Assembly: GCA_002689345.1 (NCBI GenBank)
Contig: NZFU01000014.1
Location: 1-33,060 of the forward strand
Source of the DNA: Methanobacteriota archaeon
GTDB taxonomy: Archaea; Thermoplasmatota; Poseidoniia; Poseidoniales; Poseidoniaceae
Direction of reading: 5' to 3'
DNA length: 33,060 nt
In this document: piece after piece, positions 26,192-32,731 of the stretch
How the letters are laid out: each line of letters opens with the position of its first letter
Numbering within the stretch: the first letter of the stretch is position 1
Notes under the pieces: generated by a model
Told to the model about the DNA's origin: nothing
The model's database searches: none
What the model saw: only the letters and a program-made list of their open reading frames with translations
Program-made: the position numbers and the translations under genes

Positions 26192-28045
26192 ATGACTGAA
26201 GAATTTACATCTCACGAATATGATGTTATTGTAATCGGCGCAGGAGGAGCCGGTCTTCGTGCTGCTATTGAAGCGGCAAGAAGTGGTGCTAAGACAGCAA
26301 TAATCACCAAGTCTCTACTTGGAAAAGCACACACTGTAATGGCAGAAGGTGGCTGTGCTGCTGCTTTACAAAACGCAGACCCTCGCGATGGCTGGAAAGT
26401 ACATTTCCATGACACTATGAAAGGAAGCAAATGGCTTGCTAACTGGCGTATGGCTGAGTACCATGCCAAAGAAGCACCCGATAGAGTCAGAGAATTGGAA
26501 CAATGGGGTGCTGTATTCGATAGAACTCCTAAGAATTTAATCAATCAGAGAAACTTCGGTGGGCACACATTCCCACGTCTTGCCCATGTCGGTGATGCAA
26601 CAGGACTCGAATTGATTCGAACTTTACAAGAAAGAGGAATTCATGAAGGCATTGACATGTTCACAGAATATACTGTTCGCCATCTTCTCAAAGAAGGCGA
26701 TAGAGTAACTGGCTGTGTAGCATATACTCGTGTAGATGGTGATTTCCATGCATTCTCTGCAAAGTCAGTAGTTCTAGCAACTGGAGGAATCACCCGATGC
26801 TGGTCGGTTTGCTCTGGGTCTTGGGAATATACTGGAGACGGCCATGCTCTAGCACTTTGGGCAGGAGCTGAACTGCGCGACATGGAGTTCGTGCAATTCC
26901 ATCCTACCGGCATGGTTTGGCCACCATCTGTCAGAGGAATTCTAGTTACAGAAGGTGTACGTGGTGAAGGAGGCCGTTTGACTAATTCAGAAGGTAAGCG
27001 GTTCATGTTTGACTATGTTCCTGAAATGTTTGCAGGCGACCATGCTGCTACTATCGAAGAATCAGATCAATGGGTCGAAGAAGTTGTTAGCGGTAAACTT
27101 GCAACAGTTCGCCGACCTCCAGAACTTCTAACCCGTGACGTTGTCGCTAAGGCAATCAATAGTGAAGTTAAGGCAGGCAGAGGTAGTCCACACGGGGGAG
27201 CATTCCTAGATATTTCACATCGCGGCGAAGAAGCAATTCTCGCTAAACTACCATCAATGCACCATCAATTCAAGGAATTAGCAGGTGTAGATATTTCCAA
27301 AGAAGCAATGGAAGTAGGTCCAACCGCTCACTATGTAATGGGCGGTGTACGCGTCGATGCAGATAGTCAGGAGACCACGGTTTCGGGCCTATACGCTTGT
27401 GGAGAAGTCGCTAGCGGTTTACACGGAGCAAACAGACTAGGAGGCAATTCATTGTCTGACTTAATCGTGTTTGGTAAAAGAGCGGGTGAGTATGCTGCAA
27501 AGCGTGCTACAGACCTAGCCCAGCCAAGTATCGATGAGGGCCAAGTTCAATCTGCAATCGAAGAGATGTTAGCGCCACTCGAGAGAGGAGAGGGTGAGAA
27601 CCCGGGTCGAATCTATGACGAAATGCGTGATATGATGCAAGAAAAAGTGGGAATTATTCGTCTAAAGGATGAATTAGAAGCTGCTTTAGATGACCTTAAA
27701 CAATTTTCACAGAGAGAACAAAAGTGCTATCCTGGAACTAGTAGGAAATACAATTCAGGTTGGCATCAAGCACTCGATCTCAAGAATATGGTAGATATTT
27801 CTACAGTTGCAACTTTAGCAGCACTCACTAGAGAAGAAAGCCGTGGAGGGCATACTCGTGATGATTTCCCAGGGCATGAAGATGAGTACTGGGGTAAAAC
27901 TCTCAACATTTGCTGGATGGAAGATGGTGAAATCAAGATACGTCAAGAGCCGGTTGAAGAAATGAGAGGCGACCTCAAAGACGCAATCACGGAAGTAAAG
28001 ACCATGATTGCTGATAGAGCAGCTGAACAAGGAGGCGGAAACTGA
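26192..28045 (+). CDS. sdhA: succinate dehydrogenase flavoprotein subunit
   Basis: A 617-residue subunit oxidising succinate to fumarate on a covalently bound FAD, facing the cytoplasm. The dinucleotide-binding motif GAGGAG is at 16-21, the flavinylation His is H47 in AHTVMAEGG, and active-site motifs GGHTFPRLAHVGD, FHPTG, RGEGGRL and HYVMGG are all intact, as is the FAD-binding GEVASGLHGANRLGGNSL. The C-terminal helical domain ends in DRAAEQGGGN. ATG 26192 has AGGAGGTG upstream, overlapping the end of sdhC; a GTG at 26183 is a less likely start. The order membrane subunit, SdhA, SdhB is the same as in the mycobacterial sdh1 operon. It overlaps sdhB by one base (TGATG). Confidence 0.96.
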   Translation: MTEEFTSHEYDVIVIGAGGAGLRAAIEAARSGAKTAIITKSLLGKAHTVMAEGGCAAALQNADPRDGWKVHFHDTMKGSKWLANWRMAEYHAKEAPDRVRELEQWGAVFDRTPKNLINQRNFGGHTFPRLAHVGDATGLELIRTLQERGIHEGIDMFTEYTVRHLLKEGDRVTGCVAYTRVDGDFHAFSAKSVVLATGGITRCWSVCSGSWEYTGDGHALALWAGAELRDMEFVQFHPTGMVWPPSVRGILVTEGVRGEGGRLTNSEGKRFMFDYVPEMFAGDHAATIEESDQWVEEVVSGKLATVRRPPELLTRDVVAKAINSEVKAGRGSPHGGAFLDISHRGEEAILAKLPSMHHQFKELAGVDISKEAMEVGPTAHYVMGGVRVDADSQETTVSGLYACGEVASGLHGANRLGGNSLSDLIVFGKRAGEYAAKRATDLAQPSIDEGQVQSAIEEMLAPLERGEGENPGRIYDEMRDMMQEKVGIIRLKDELEAALDDLKQFSQREQKCYPGTSRKYNSGWHQALDLKNMVDISTVATLAALTREESRGGHTRDDFPGHEDEYWGKTLNICWMEDGEIKIRQEPVEEMRGDLKDAITEVKTMIADRAAEQGGGN

Positions 28046-28812
28046 TGTCACTCAAAGGTAAGAAACAGAAATTCAACGTTCTTCGTGGTGAAGGTGAAGA
28101 TTCCAAACTTCAAGAATATGATTTGGAATTGGATGAAGGTATGGTCGTTCTAGATTGTATGCATCGTATTCAATACGAACAAGAACCAGACCTAGCGGTT
28201 CGCTGGAACTGTAAGGCTGGGAAATGTGGCTCCTGTAGTGCTGAAATCAATGGAAGGCCACGCTTGATGTGTATGACGAGAATGTCAGATGTTGTAGCCG
28301 AGACTCCAGAGGGTCAGCCAATTGAGGTTCGACCAATGAAGGCATTCCCTCACGTCAAAGATTTGGTAAGTGATGTTTCATGGAATTATGAAGTAGCTCA
28401 GAAAATCAAACCTATCAAAGGGCCTGAAGAAAAGAATTGGAAATTCAATCAACATGAAGCACACAGAGTTCAGCAATTCAGAGAATGTATCGAATGTTTC
28501 CTGTGCGTAAATACATGTCACGTATTGAGGGACCACCAATTATTCGACGATTTCGCAGGACCTCGTAACTTAGTCCGTCTAGCACAATACGAGATGCATC
28601 CTCTTGATGAGGAGGACAGGATTCCCGAAATCAAGAAAGAATTCGGAATCGAGTATTGTAATATTACAAGGTGCTGTACTGAAGTATGCCCTGCTGGGAT
28701 TCAGATTACAGACGATGCAATTATTCAATTGAAAGAAAGAGTTGTAGACCGATACTATGACCCTCTACAGAGAATCTGGAGAGTAATTACTCGAAAGAAT
28801 GTCCGAATGTAA
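28045..28812 (+). CDS. sdhB: succinate dehydrogenase iron-sulfur subunit
   Basis: A 255-residue subunit carrying electrons from SdhA to the membrane. The N-terminal ferredoxin domain has a [2Fe-2S] site at C56, C61, C64 and C76 (CKAGKCGSC...C). The C-terminal domain holds C148, C151, C154 and C158 (CIECFLCVNTC) and C205, C210, C211 and C215 (CNITRCCTEVCP), together ligating the [4Fe-4S] and [3Fe-4S]-type centres. The CVNTCHVLRDH form and the length resemble the actinobacterial Sdh1 iron-sulfur protein. The start is coupled to the sdhA stop (TGATG). A degenerate copy of residues 195-219 lies 1.7 kb downstream at 30320-30415. Confidence 0.96.
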   Translation: MSLKGKKQKFNVLRGEGEDSKLQEYDLELDEGMVVLDCMHRIQYEQEPDLAVRWNCKAGKCGSCSAEINGRPRLMCMTRMSDVVAETPEGQPIEVRPMKAFPHVKDLVSDVSWNYEVAQKIKPIKGPEEKNWKFNQHEAHRVQQFRECIECFLCVNTCHVLRDHQLFDDFAGPRNLVRLAQYEMHPLDEEDRIPEIKKEFGIEYCNITRCCTEVCPAGIQITDDAIIQLKERVVDRYYDPLQRIWRVITRKNVRM

Positions 28813-28837
28813 ACAAGTCACTTAAGTGGGTATTTGC

Positions 28838-30316
28838 ATGTCTGAACAGTTAGATACAGTTGGTTTTTCCAATCCAAAATCTCGGTTTTCAAATTTTTTC
28901 AAACCAGGGAATGATTTGCTTGGGTACACATTATTTCTAACTTCAATGATTCTTTGGTTCGAAGGAAATAATTTGCGTTCATTGACTATCTTTTTGGCAA
29001 TAATTGCTTTCTTTTGGTTTGTAGTCAACCTATTGACAAAAACCAAATTGTTCTCAAAAAAAGAAACAGACCTCGAAAATCCAAGCACCAAAAGAAAATT
29101 AAAAACTCTGTCATTTATTTTGGTAATCTTAGTCGCTTTATTGGTTTCAACAACCACTATTGTTCTTAATATTGCAGAAGATTTTGGTGGTGAACCGGTT
29201 TCACATGATTCGCCGAATTACAACGATGGTACTTTTGAAAATTCAGAAACAACTTCGCTTCAATCAGGTGAAGTTTCAAGTTGGGATTTACTAGGGGAAT
29301 ACATGGTCAGTGATAATTGCAGATCACCAAATGAAGACCTACCTTCAGAGAAGTTTGAATTGATAGATTTAGAGAATGATGAAATCAGTGTAACATGGTT
29401 TGGTCATTCGACTATCTTGATGCGCTCGAATAATGTGACTATCATTACAGATCCTGTATTCAGTGATGCGGGTGCAGGGCCTCTTTCATTAGGCCCAAGT
29501 CCATTTCCATACGAACATTCTTACAATCTAGATGATTTACCAGAAATCGATTATGTTTTTATTTCGCACGACCATTACGACCATTTGGATATGAATACAG
29601 TCAAGAAACTTGAAGATTCAATGTTCTTTGTTCCATTAGGAATCAAAAACCATCTATTGGAATGGGATATTGAAGATGAACATGTTCAGGAATTAGATTG
29701 GTATGATGAAGTTAATATTTCTCAGGACCTACATGCGGCTCTAACTCCTGCACGACATTTCAGCGGCCGAGGTCTAACCGATAGCCATAGCACCTTATGG
29801 GGCTCTTGGGTTTTCAATTTACACGATACGAGTATTTACTTCAGCGGAGATACAGGTTACACCGACGAGTTTACAAATATCAGTGAAAAATTTGGCCCAT
29901 TCGATATTGCATTCTTGGATTCAGGACAGTATAATATTGCATGGCAGCAAGTCCATATGCTTCCAGAGCAAGTCATTCAGGCAGGCATTGACCTGAATGC
30001 TTCTTTAGTCCTACCAATTCATATTTCCAAGTATGAATTGGCGTTACATCATTGGTATGAGCCGATGGAATTGGTTTCTACACTTGGCGCAGAAAGGAAC
30101 GTGTCTGTAGCGACCCCTATTCTTGGAAGCAGTTTCATCATTGGAGATGAAATTCCCAATGAAGCATGGTGGAGAGGCGTTTCAGAATGTACTGAGCCAT
30201 TTTTTGATGAGCATCCCATACTGGAATACACTTTGATATATACTGGTTTAATTGGAATCTTGTGGGTTGCTATTCCTCGATTCAAGAATAGAAATAAACA
30301 CTCAGAAGAAGAATGA
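28838..30316 (+). CDS. membrane-anchored metallo-beta-lactamase fold hydrolase (NAPE-PLD/UlaG-like)
   Basis: A 492-residue protein. Three hydrophobic segments precede the enzyme domain (about 28-42, 48-66, 91-112), and one more lies near the C-terminus (LEYTLIYTGLIGILWVAI). The catalytic domain (about 183-450) has TWFGHSTILM, ITDPVFSD, the metal site HDHYDH (H244, H246, D248, H249), TPARHFSGRGLTDSHSTLWG and FSGDTGY. These match COG2220, whose members include N-acyl-phosphatidylethanolamine phospholipase D, so a lipid phosphodiester is a plausible but unproven substrate. With three helices before it the domain is likely outside the cytoplasm. The region is AT-rich. ATG 28838 lies 25 bases after sdhB, 10 bases after the palindrome CACTTAAGTG, and has only a weak SD. 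It is followed by the sdhB remnant. Confidence 0.85.
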   Translation: MSEQLDTVGFSNPKSRFSNFFKPGNDLLGYTLFLTSMILWFEGNNLRSLTIFLAIIAFFWFVVNLLTKTKLFSKKETDLENPSTKRKLKTLSFILVILVALLVSTTTIVLNIAEDFGGEPVSHDSPNYNDGTFENSETTSLQSGEVSSWDLLGEYMVSDNCRSPNEDLPSEKFELIDLENDEISVTWFGHSTILMRSNNVTIITDPVFSDAGAGPLSLGPSPFPYEHSYNLDDLPEIDYVFISHDHYDHLDMNTVKKLEDSMFFVPLGIKNHLLEWDIEDEHVQELDWYDEVNISQDLHAALTPARHFSGRGLTDSHSTLWGSWVFNLHDTSIYFSGDTGYTDEFTNISEKFGPFDIAFLDSGQYNIAWQQVHMLPEQVIQAGIDLNASLVLPIHISKYELALHHWYEPMELVSTLGAERNVSVATPILGSSFIIGDEIPNEAWWRGVSECTEPFFDEHPILEYTLIYTGLIGILWVAIPRFKNRNKHSEEE

Positions 30317-30319
30317 CAT

Positions 30320-30415
30320 GGTTTTGAAATCAAGAAGGGATTCCAAATAAAATACTGTAACATCACAAGATACTGTACTGAAACGTGTTCTGCAAACATA
30401 AAATCAAGCGGTTAA
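30320..30415 (+). pseudogene. decayed fragment of an sdhB-like gene
   Basis: The frame from GGT 30320 to TAA 30413-30415 reads EIKKGFQIKYCNITRYCTET and then CSANI in its core. Aligned by eye with SdhB residues 195-219 (28627-28701), 18 of 25 residues are identical, while the bases agree at 53 of 75. Many differences are synonymous third-position changes, so the copy derives from a diverged allele or paralogue that was under selection before it decayed. One cluster cysteine has become Tyr, the Pro after the last cysteine is Ser, and no start codon or N-terminal part remains. It is in the same frame as the preceding hydrolase, whose TGA (30314-30316) lies one codon (CAT) earlier. Confidence 0.8.
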
Positions 30416-30467
30416 TCCCACATTCTTGTCGGATAATGGTGGATTTCGCCCTCATAGTAGGGGATAT

Positions 30468-30489
30468 CTTTGTAAGGTAATTTACAAAG
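30468..30489. promoter_or_regulatory. inverted repeat just upstream of the gene at 30499
   Basis: CTTTGTAA (30468-30475) and TTACAAAG (30482-30489) are perfect 8-bp arms around a 6-base spacer, ending 9 bases before ATG 30499. It could be an operator near the start site or a leader hairpin covering the ribosome binding region (AAGGGT at about 30487-30492). Confidence 0.45.
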
Positions 30490-30498
30490 GGTCAGTTG

Positions 30499-30966
30499 AT
30501 GCAACCTGAAGCACAAGTAATGGGGCAAGTCGCCCCAATGGGCCAACAAGTAATTGTTGTAAGAGAAAAAAGTGGCGGACCTAAGGTCTTTGGAATGTTA
30601 GCAATCCTTCTCGGAGGTTTGAGTATTCTAATGGAAGCCCTCGCTATTGGCGAATGGGACGGAGGTCTATGGATCGCAACTGGAGCGCTAGATATTATTT
30701 CCTCTGGATTATTTATCTACGCTGGTGTACTACTATTCCAGTACCAGAAGAAAGGTGTTTGGATGGGATTCGGAGCTATCGGTGTCTCAGTTCTAAGCGG
30801 CCTTCTATTCTGGCTAGTTGTTGCAGCTGAAGCTTCTGATGAATTAGGAGATGACGCTGGAGGCTTCTTTGCAAGTCTCGGAATTGCTCTGGTCGGAATC
30901 CAAGCAATTTGCTGCAGTATAATCGTCGCTCTTCCTTTGATGATGAACGGCGCAGATCTAGACTGA
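30499..30966 (+). CDS. four-helix membrane protein of unknown function
   Basis: A 155-residue protein. The short N-terminus (MQPEAQVMGQVAPMGQQVIV) is Gln/Pro/Met-rich and likely cytoplasmic. Four hydrophobic segments follow (VFGMLAILLGGLSILMEAL, IATGALDIISSGLFIYAGVL, WMGFGAIGVSVLSGLLFWLV, SLGIALVGIQAICCSIIVAL). The third and fourth are separated by an acidic loop (EASDELGDDAGG). It is an example of the small Gly/Ala-rich tetraspan proteins common in these archaea; I recognise no named family. ATG 30499 is used rather than TTG 30496; AAGGGT lies about eight bases upstream. It begins 83 bases after the sdhB remnant, with an inverted repeat in its leader, so it probably has its own promoter. Confidence 0.7.
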   Translation: MQPEAQVMGQVAPMGQQVIVVREKSGGPKVFGMLAILLGGLSILMEALAIGEWDGGLWIATGALDIISSGLFIYAGVLLFQYQKKGVWMGFGAIGVSVLSGLLFWLVVAAEASDELGDDAGGFFASLGIALVGIQAICCSIIVALPLMMNGADLD

Positions 30967-31101
30967 GTTCAAACTTAGTTTAACCGCTACAAAGCGAACT
31001 GAACCCTGGCATGTTAGGCCGAAAGGCTACACGCCTTGCAACGGTTTGATTACCCTTTGAAACCACTAGTGTGACTTGTGCGCATGCTAGTGGTTTCAAA
31101 G
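30967..31101 (+). ncRNA. structured intergenic region, candidate non-coding RNA or leader
   Basis: Three stem-loops follow each other. The first (about 30967-31004) pairs GTTCA with TGAAC and CGC with GCG around TACAAA. The second (about 31011-31041) pairs GGC...GGCC with GGCTAC...GCC around a GAAA tetraloop, with two single-base bulges. The third is a perfect 15-bp stem CTTTGAAACCACTAG (31055-31069) with CTAGTGGTTTCAAAG (31087-31101) around a 17-base loop. No open frame of note crosses it. The strand is assumed from both flanking genes. It could instead be a leader element of the cytochrome gene, a terminator (no T-run follows), or a small palindromic repeat element. No tRNA features are present. 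Confidence 0.4.
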
Positions 31102-31153
31102 CCCTAGTCATTGATACCAAAACCACATAGAGGAATTGGATACGGGATTAGTT

Positions 31154-31744
31154 ATGGAGAAGAGACATACTATTCTTGCAAGGTTTCTCCATTGGGGATT
31201 TATCATTCTCTATTCTTATGGTATATTCAAACAAATCGACGAATTATCTCAATTAGAAGATACAGGTTTGCTTATTTTTGAGGTAATTTTTGCAAGTTTA
31301 TTTCTTGTTATCGTTTTGATACGATATTTCTACATGAGGAGGTTTGAGACTTTCCTGGGCGCAAGTGAACCAGTTCACATAGTTCACAAATACTTTGCAA
31401 AAACGATTCACACCTCAATGTATGCTTGTTTGATTCTTCTTCCCCTTACCGGGTTGATGATCGCTGGATTATTCACACAAGGCTATACCGACGAAGATGG
31501 AATCTTGATTAGTTCAATACTTGGTGTACATGAGTTTTCTGCTACCCTTAGTTATATTCTGATTGCAACTCATATTGCTGCAGCTATTTATTCACGAATC
31601 AAGGGAGAAGGGATTTGGTCTGCAATGGTTCCATTATTGAATAATGAGAAACCGACATCAAATGAAATAATTATAAAAATTTCAACTTTAGAAAACAAAA
31701 TTTATGATAAAGTTGAAGATTTATTTACTTCAAAGAAAGAATGA
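31154..31744 (+). CDS. cytochrome b561-like membrane protein
   Basis: A 196-residue protein with about four membrane helices and conserved-looking histidines H13 (RFLHWG), H86 (KTIHTSMY), H126 (GVHEFS) and H140 (ATHIAAAIYS), fitting the bacterial-type cytochrome b561 / Ni,Fe-hydrogenase cytochrome b family (PF01292). Such proteins hold two b hemes and pass electrons across the membrane to or from quinones. The charged tail (about 160-196, Lys/Glu-rich) is cytoplasmic. The first in-frame TTG at 31136 would add six residues; ATG 31154 has GGGAT seven bases upstream and starts right before the first helix (MEKRHTILARFLHWG), as in relatives. No partner enzyme is adjacent. It converges with the DoxX-like gene with a nine-base gap. 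Confidence 0.8.
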   Translation: MEKRHTILARFLHWGFIILYSYGIFKQIDELSQLEDTGLLIFEVIFASLFLVIVLIRYFYMRRFETFLGASEPVHIVHKYFAKTIHTSMYACLILLPLTGLMIAGLFTQGYTDEDGILISSILGVHEFSATLSYILIATHIAAAIYSRIKGEGIWSAMVPLLNNEKPTSNEIIIKISTLENKIYDKVEDLFTSKKE

Positions 31745-31753
31745 CCTGATCAT

Positions 31754-32731
31754 TCACAGAATATGAGTTCTGACTTCACAGGAAGATGGTTTCTTAGGAG
31801 CTTCACTGAATCCGAATTTACACGGCTCTTTCATCGGACTAATTTGTCCAGCACTTTGACCCGAAATAATCGCATTAGCTTTGATTATTTTTGAGACTCT
31901 GTCTATTGCATACCATTCCTTCCGGTTATTACGAGTAACCCCATGTGTCCGAGTTGAAAAGAATAGTTTGGCGAAGAACAATTCCACAGTTGCGATGAAT
32001 AAAAGCGAACGTTTGAACGGTATTTTCCAGCCTCTATTCCAAACGAATTCAAGTTCCATCATCTCACAAGAAACTTTCATCTCATCTCCATTTTGTTCAA
32101 CATCAATCTCTTGAATTAGAATTTCATCAAAAGAATACATCTCATCAACGTATTCAGCTATATCTTTGCTTGGAGCGATTAGAGTTCTATGTCCATCAGG
32201 TCGAGCCCACATAATATCTGCAAATTTTCCAAATCGGGATTCATCCCAGGTGCCAACAACAATTCGATCACCACTTTGGAAACCACTTGAAGTAATTCTG
32301 CCTTTGAAAACATCCATCATTTCAATTAGTTTCTCTTTACCTTTGAATGGTGTAATCTGACCAATCCATGCTATTGTAAAAATTAGAATTATTTGAATAA
32401 GTAATCTCACAATATGCCACACGTCATCATATTGGGTGTCATTTAGTGGGATATCGTTGTACCACATATTGAAATTCGCCCAGTATAGTGCTACTAGCAT
32501 CCAAACTATTCCAATCGAAGAAATGGTTCGAGTTTTTGGAATAATCAACATCAATCCAAATAGTACTTCGAATAAACCGCTCAACAAAACCCAAAAGTAT
32601 GCAGAGGGAAGAATTTCTGGTACTATTGGTTCATACCATACGGGATTAATGAAGTGGTCAATTCCTATGTTGATGAAGGCTAGACCTAAGCCTACAGACA
32701 CAAAATCTCGTAATGTGAATTTCAGTTCCAC
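31754..32731 (-). CDS. DoxX-like membrane protein fused to an uncharacterised C-terminal domain
   Basis: A 325-residue protein. The first 125 residues form a DoxX-like four-helix unit (GLAFINIGIDHFINPVWYEP, FWVLLSGLFEVLFGLMLIIP, IGIVWMLVALYWANFNMW, then IIQ-type last helix). Residues from about 145 onward form a separate soluble-looking domain starting SGDRIVVGTWDESRFGKFAD followed by IMWARPDGHRTLIAPSKDIA, a pattern I associate with hypothetical actinobacterial proteins. This domain has one hydrophobic stretch (SLLFIATVELFFAKLFF) and ends with two cysteines in a polar tail. DoxX family members are often linked to thiol or sulfur stress; nothing here fixes the function. The start is GTG 32731, because the overlapping ATG at 32733 is out of frame. 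A TATA-like box lies about 24 bases upstream, so the transcript may be leaderless. Confidence 0.72.
   Translation of the reverse strand: MELKFTLRDFVSVGLGLAFINIGIDHFINPVWYEPIVPEILPSAYFWVLLSGLFEVLFGLMLIIPKTRTISSIGIVWMLVALYWANFNMWYNDIPLNDTQYDDVWHIVRLLIQIILIFTIAWIGQITPFKGKEKLIEMMDVFKGRITSSGFQSGDRIVVGTWDESRFGKFADIMWARPDGHRTLIAPSKDIAEYVDEMYSFDEILIQEIDVEQNGDEMKVSCEMMELEFVWNRGWKIPFKRSLLFIATVELFFAKLFFSTRTHGVTRNNRKEWYAIDRVSKIIKANAIISGQSAGQISPMKEPCKFGFSEAPKKPSSCEVRTHIL

Follow-up and report, generated by a model that had tools for sequence, protein, structure and literature searches.

Beyond the succinate dehydrogenase (sdh) genes of an archaeon of the Poseidoniaceae, a short decayed piece of the iron-sulfur subunit gene sdhB lies downstream of the intact gene, and a hydrolase gene stands between the two. 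Such a locus raises the question of which part of it is the newcomer and how the piece of sdhB came to be there. We analysed a stretch of 33,060 nucleotides of contig NZFU01000014.1, referred to below as the window; its features lie on the forward strand unless stated otherwise. An initial annotation of this DNA had taken the hydrolase gene for the inserted cargo and the piece of sdhB for a displaced gene end. Our analysis points to a different newcomer, a segment of 1.43 kb that begins behind the hydrolase gene.

The intact sdhB is the last gene of the sdh cluster (28045..28812; NCBIfam NF009052, E=1.2e-104), and its product is 89-96% identical in amino acids to SdhB of 17 genomes of the genus. 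A profile search with 18 sdhB genes of the genus (nhmmer) returned this gene and one other significant place, 30322-30394, with E = 1.2e-9. A whole-genome protein search independently matched 30305-30409 to SdhB residues 188-222 (E = 1e-6). The local alignment score of the fragment is 34, and 2000 shuffles gave a mean of 10.7, an SD of 1.5 and a maximum of 20. The homology is thus beyond chance. It is recognisable from 30322 to about 30406, which corresponds to sdhB codons ~195-220. The fragment shares with the local sdhB 18 of 25 residues and 54 of 78 bases (53 of 75 over the same 25 codons). These counts, the homology itself and the end of the intact gene at 28812 agree with the initial annotation, which had described a decayed copy of SdhB after the hydrolase.

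The fragment begins 5 bases past the TGA of the hydrolase gene, in the same frame. It is truncated at both ends, and about 8 of its 26 residues are changed. Since an in-frame start codon and the last ~33 codons of SdhB are missing and a cysteine of the Fe-S cluster motif is lost by a Cys-to-Tyr change (YCNITRYCTETC vs YCNITRCCTEVC), the fragment is dead. Thus, 30322-30406 is a non-functional relic of sdhB, in which the coding capacity is lost and the constraint is relaxed. We also considered read-through of the hydrolase stop codon into the in-frame fragment (32 codons). In the relatives with a readable end of the hydrolase gene, the sequence after the stop codon is unrelated, and this candidate was rejected.

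We searched 171 family genomes with two queries, the DNA of the region and the C-terminal portion of SdhB. It turned out that the fragment is present solely in the genome of the window. Second matches to sdhB in G074 and G170 belong to sdh copies that are longer and lie on contigs of their own, probably a mixture of strains, and a second match in G005 proved to be a frameshift inside its one sdhB. A degenerate pattern of the fragment had no match in the collections of genome contigs and viral contigs.

The gene between sdhB and the fragment (28826..30316) encodes a hydrolase of the metallo-beta-lactamase fold (MBL), which is NAPE-PLD-like (Pfam PF12706, E=2.2e-37; PDB 4qn9 NAPE-PLD, E=3.6e-42) and may be anchored in the membrane by putative N- and C-terminal segments. 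Hydrolysis of N-acyl-phospholipids would be an odd activity for a cell in which ether lipids of the archaeal kind are expected. Of the 17 other members of the genus with this type of sdhB, 11 have the MBL gene immediately behind sdhB (12 of 18 counting the genome of the window). The MBL gene is absent from this place in G022, G012, G008, G007 and G017, two of which (G007 and G012) have it elsewhere, and the contig of G016 ends too early to be scored. The MBL gene adjoins sdhB in both main clades of the genus, and among the copies with downstream sequence at hand none in another genome is followed by an sdhB fragment. Scans of the genome-contig and viral-contig collections returned no relatives of the hydrolase.

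The DNA of the MBL gene is 79% identical to that of G025, its nearest relative, and the flanking sdh genes are 79-83% identical. In trees built with FastTree, the MBL gene broadly shows the main clades of the sdhB tree, some of its deeper nodes being poorly supported, and the genome of the window (G000) and G025 are sisters with a support of 0.97. A model of unconstrained DNA puts the neutral divergence of the fragment at about 0.24 changes per site, with a 2-log range of about 0.12-0.41. The base of the genus lies 0.63 third-position changes per site back, and that age is about 9 log units worse for the fragment; both ages are rough, as third positions are not fully neutral, and a correction would make the base of the genus older still. 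Residence of the MBL gene next to sdhB is therefore older than the fragment, and the hydrolase is probably a long-standing neighbour and no recent insert. Since it is found in 11 other genomes without the fragment, broadly tracks the sdhB tree and predates the fragment, the idea of the hydrolase as cargo bounded by the relic is unsupported. The arrangement predicted from this idea, in which sdhB runs straight into the sequence after 30415, occurs in no relative examined.

What separates the window from its relatives begins after the MBL gene. A segment of 1.43 kb (30317..31750), delimited by gene order and edge alignments with an approximate right edge, lies between the MBL gene and the next conserved gene. 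The latter (31754..32731, reverse strand) follows the MBL gene in G025 (75% amino acid identity) and directly follows sdhB in G003 (70%). In G025, the order is sdhB, MBL, about 30 bases and then this gene, with neither fragment nor cargo. Thus, novel DNA at the same conserved site amounts to 1.43 kb in the window and about 30 bases in its close relative, in a comparison where DNA identity is only about 80% even to the nearest relatives, G025 included. Different genes occupy the same site after sdhB in other genomes; therefore, what lies downstream of sdhB varies within the family.

The segment holds the fragment first, then a small membrane-protein gene and then a cytochrome b561 gene. The small gene (30496..30966, 156 aa) has no Pfam or NCBIfam match. 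Its product is 51-59% identical in amino acids to proteins of genera g11 and g4, 40-41% to those of another family and about 22-34% to those of genus-mates. Because its nearest relatives are in other genera and not among the genus-mates, a foreign origin by horizontal movement is suggested. The homologue kept by genus-mates is far more distant and has a conserved neighbourhood, and the closer relatives have differing neighbours. The cytochrome b561-type gene (31136..31744; PF01292, E=1.1e-17) shows 66-70% identity to genus-mates and is found at varied places and in varied neighbourhoods in other genomes, so the cargo need not come from one source.

Within the segment, a DNA profile found no remnants of the hydrolase gene, and no Rfam families were found; no tRNAs were found in the window. 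Repeats of the segment elsewhere in the genome were limited to weak matches at the level of chance. Between the two cargo genes, two arms of 15 bases form a perfect inverted repeat around a 17-base loop (31055-31101). No second good copy of this repeat exists in the genome, and it is possibly a terminator. An imperfect direct repeat of 19 bases (79%) is present at the two ends of the segment, 30302-30320 and 31730-31748, in both cases over stop codons, and may be due to chance.

The sdh cluster itself differs within the genus. Five genus-mates, G003, G004, G005, G020 and G021 (loci L050-L054), have a different sdh type, in which SdhB is 67-71% identical and identity falls to 34-36% for the subunit upstream of SdhA. 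Their upstream neighbours, where both are comparable, are similar (CDC48, aldehyde dehydrogenase 86-97%). A divergent sdh type beside similar upstream neighbours suggests that the whole sdh operon was replaced in place in these genomes.

From which sdhB was the fragment derived? At the 14 sites where the local sdhB departs from the consensus of the genus, the fragment has the consensus state at 7, the local state at 3 and neither at 4. We placed the fragment on the sdhB tree with a purpose-made likelihood placement that allows for neutral decay after birth, and the local branch came out about 3 log units worse than other lineages. Among simulated local copies born at 75-95% of the local branch, 0-2% showed a difference this large (P 0.000-0.023); the share was 2-3% for births at 50% and 3-7% for births at 5-25%. 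These frequencies reject a recent local duplication of sdhB and only marginally disfavour an old local copy (P about 0.03-0.07). On the first point the data bear out the initial annotation, which had argued from synonymous differences against a recent local duplicate. The best placements, on deep branches of other genera and on branches within the genus, lie within about 2 log units of one another, and the comparison of 78 bases is too short to name the donor lineage. The C66 sequence of G074, whose branch had received a posterior of 0.63, was removed from the placement; it is frameshifted and has an inflated branch.

Because G025 has about 30 bases where the window has 1.43 kb, the relic is most likely the left edge of a later insert between the resident hydrolase gene and 31754-32731. 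We propose, with moderate confidence, that this insert arose by illegitimate recombination helped by homology on one side. The incoming DNA would have come from a related archaeon and carried the sdhB of another lineage. One side, probably the right with its conserved gene, would have paired by homology. On the left side, the DNA would have been joined end to end, with the join falling within the donor sdhB and, in the resident DNA, where the MBL gene ends. The 3' stretch of the donor sdhB may thus have entered as a useless edge that has decayed since, and the two genes beyond it would be the actual cargo, arriving together with the relic.

The sequence at the join suggests a short microhomology. 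The final codons of the MBL gene (30302..30316) are TCA GAA GAA GAA TGA, and sdhB has GAT GAA GAA GAC at codons ~189-193 (GATGAAGAAGAC). GAAGAA is common to both and is in register with the homology of the fragment; this candidate match is short and lies in purine-rich codons. The EEE end is native to the MBL protein in relatives. The arrangement expected of the donor, sdhB followed by this cargo, was found in none of 34 loci of the genus and family and none of 20 loci of genus g11, and so we infer the donor. The ancestral arrangement at the site is taken mainly from G025, because G022, G008 and G012, the nearest relatives by sdhB, are without the MBL gene there.

An old tandem duplication in the local lineage could have produced the same junction with no donor. 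Unequal crossover between the end of the MBL gene and sdhB at codons ~190, which the in-register GAAGAA would fit, would give sdhB-MBL-sdhB'(3' part)-MBL', and the second unit would then have decayed and been replaced by two other genes. Birth early on the local branch is only marginally disfavoured by the simulations (P about 0.03-0.07, as above). However, birth in the last quarter of that branch is rejected, most of the local synonymous states are missing from the fragment, the profile detected no MBL remnant in the segment, and extra steps of loss and gain are needed. We consider this explanation possible, though rather unlikely.

In the reading of the initial annotation, DNA with sdhB-MBL entered by recombination where the resident sdhB ends, and the displaced 3' end of that gene survives as the fragment. 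The order of intact gene, cargo and fragment fits it, as does the lack of the MBL gene at this site in G022, G008 and G012; a variant in which the genome of the window regained sdhB-MBL from a G025-like neighbour is also conceivable. However, the sdhB genes of these three relatives are not the closest to the fragment, which shares with them 51-55 of 78 bases and with its best matches 58-59. The MBL gene adjoins sdhB without the fragment across both main clades, and its divergence from G025 resembles that of the flanking sdh genes. We regard this course of events as improbable. What stands of the earlier interpretation is that the relic is real and is no recent local duplicate; what probably falls is the hydrolase as the insert.

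The join of the MBL gene and the fragment might also be a chimera of the draft assembly, which consists of 74 contigs and is 77% complete. In that case, the chimera should contain intact sequence of an sdhB occurring alongside, yet the piece has about 8 amino acid changes in 26 codons, including the cluster cysteine. Because of these changes it is an aged relic wherever it is located, and we hold an artefact to be very improbable. An intact gene with a 3' fragment is the classic layout of site-specific integrating elements, which the locus matches, but integration at the sdhB 3' end with the fragment as the distal attachment copy is largely refuted, as the terminal ~33 codons are missing from the fragment and its divergence is high, the MBL gene is the only long open reading frame that separates it from sdhB and no integrase gene lies there, and the window has no tRNA.

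The preferred reading, a later insert joined on one side by homology, resembles processes known in bacteria. Homology-facilitated illegitimate recombination has been described in three naturally competent bacteria and in E. coli conjugation (PMC3240628). One-sided pairing with an illegitimate join would account here, too, for new DNA that follows a conserved gene and has a stray piece of the donor at its edge. The bacterial events were observed experimentally, whereas ours is reconstructed from one archaeal genome, with no donor found and a candidate microhomology. The same mechanism has been proposed for the type VI loci of Vibrio cholerae, where old immunity genes are displaced downstream of new modules (PMC5361080). 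Those loci likewise have a constant upstream gene, variable cargo and an older leftover further downstream. In V. cholerae, the leftovers are immunity genes kept in arrays, in contrast to the one decayed 85-base scrap found here. In no essential respect does the scrap differ from the ordinary pseudogene fragments of variable intergenic sites: it is likewise short, decayed, untranslatable and lineage-specific, and merely sits at the edge of a detectable insertion.

One may speculate further that DNA lands repeatedly behind sdhB, that whole allelic versions of the region pass from one genus of these uncultured archaea to another through one-sided illegitimate recombination, and that the scrap is a scar of such an exchange with a piece of sdhB from another genus; we think this doubtful. 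The sdhB fragment is an ordinary scar of an old genome rearrangement and alone changes little. It shows that the site downstream of sdhB is variable, and it corrects the tempting reading of the hydrolase as the newcomer. Scraps of genes at the edges of variable regions record the entry of cargo genes in uncultured archaea that are beyond laboratory study.
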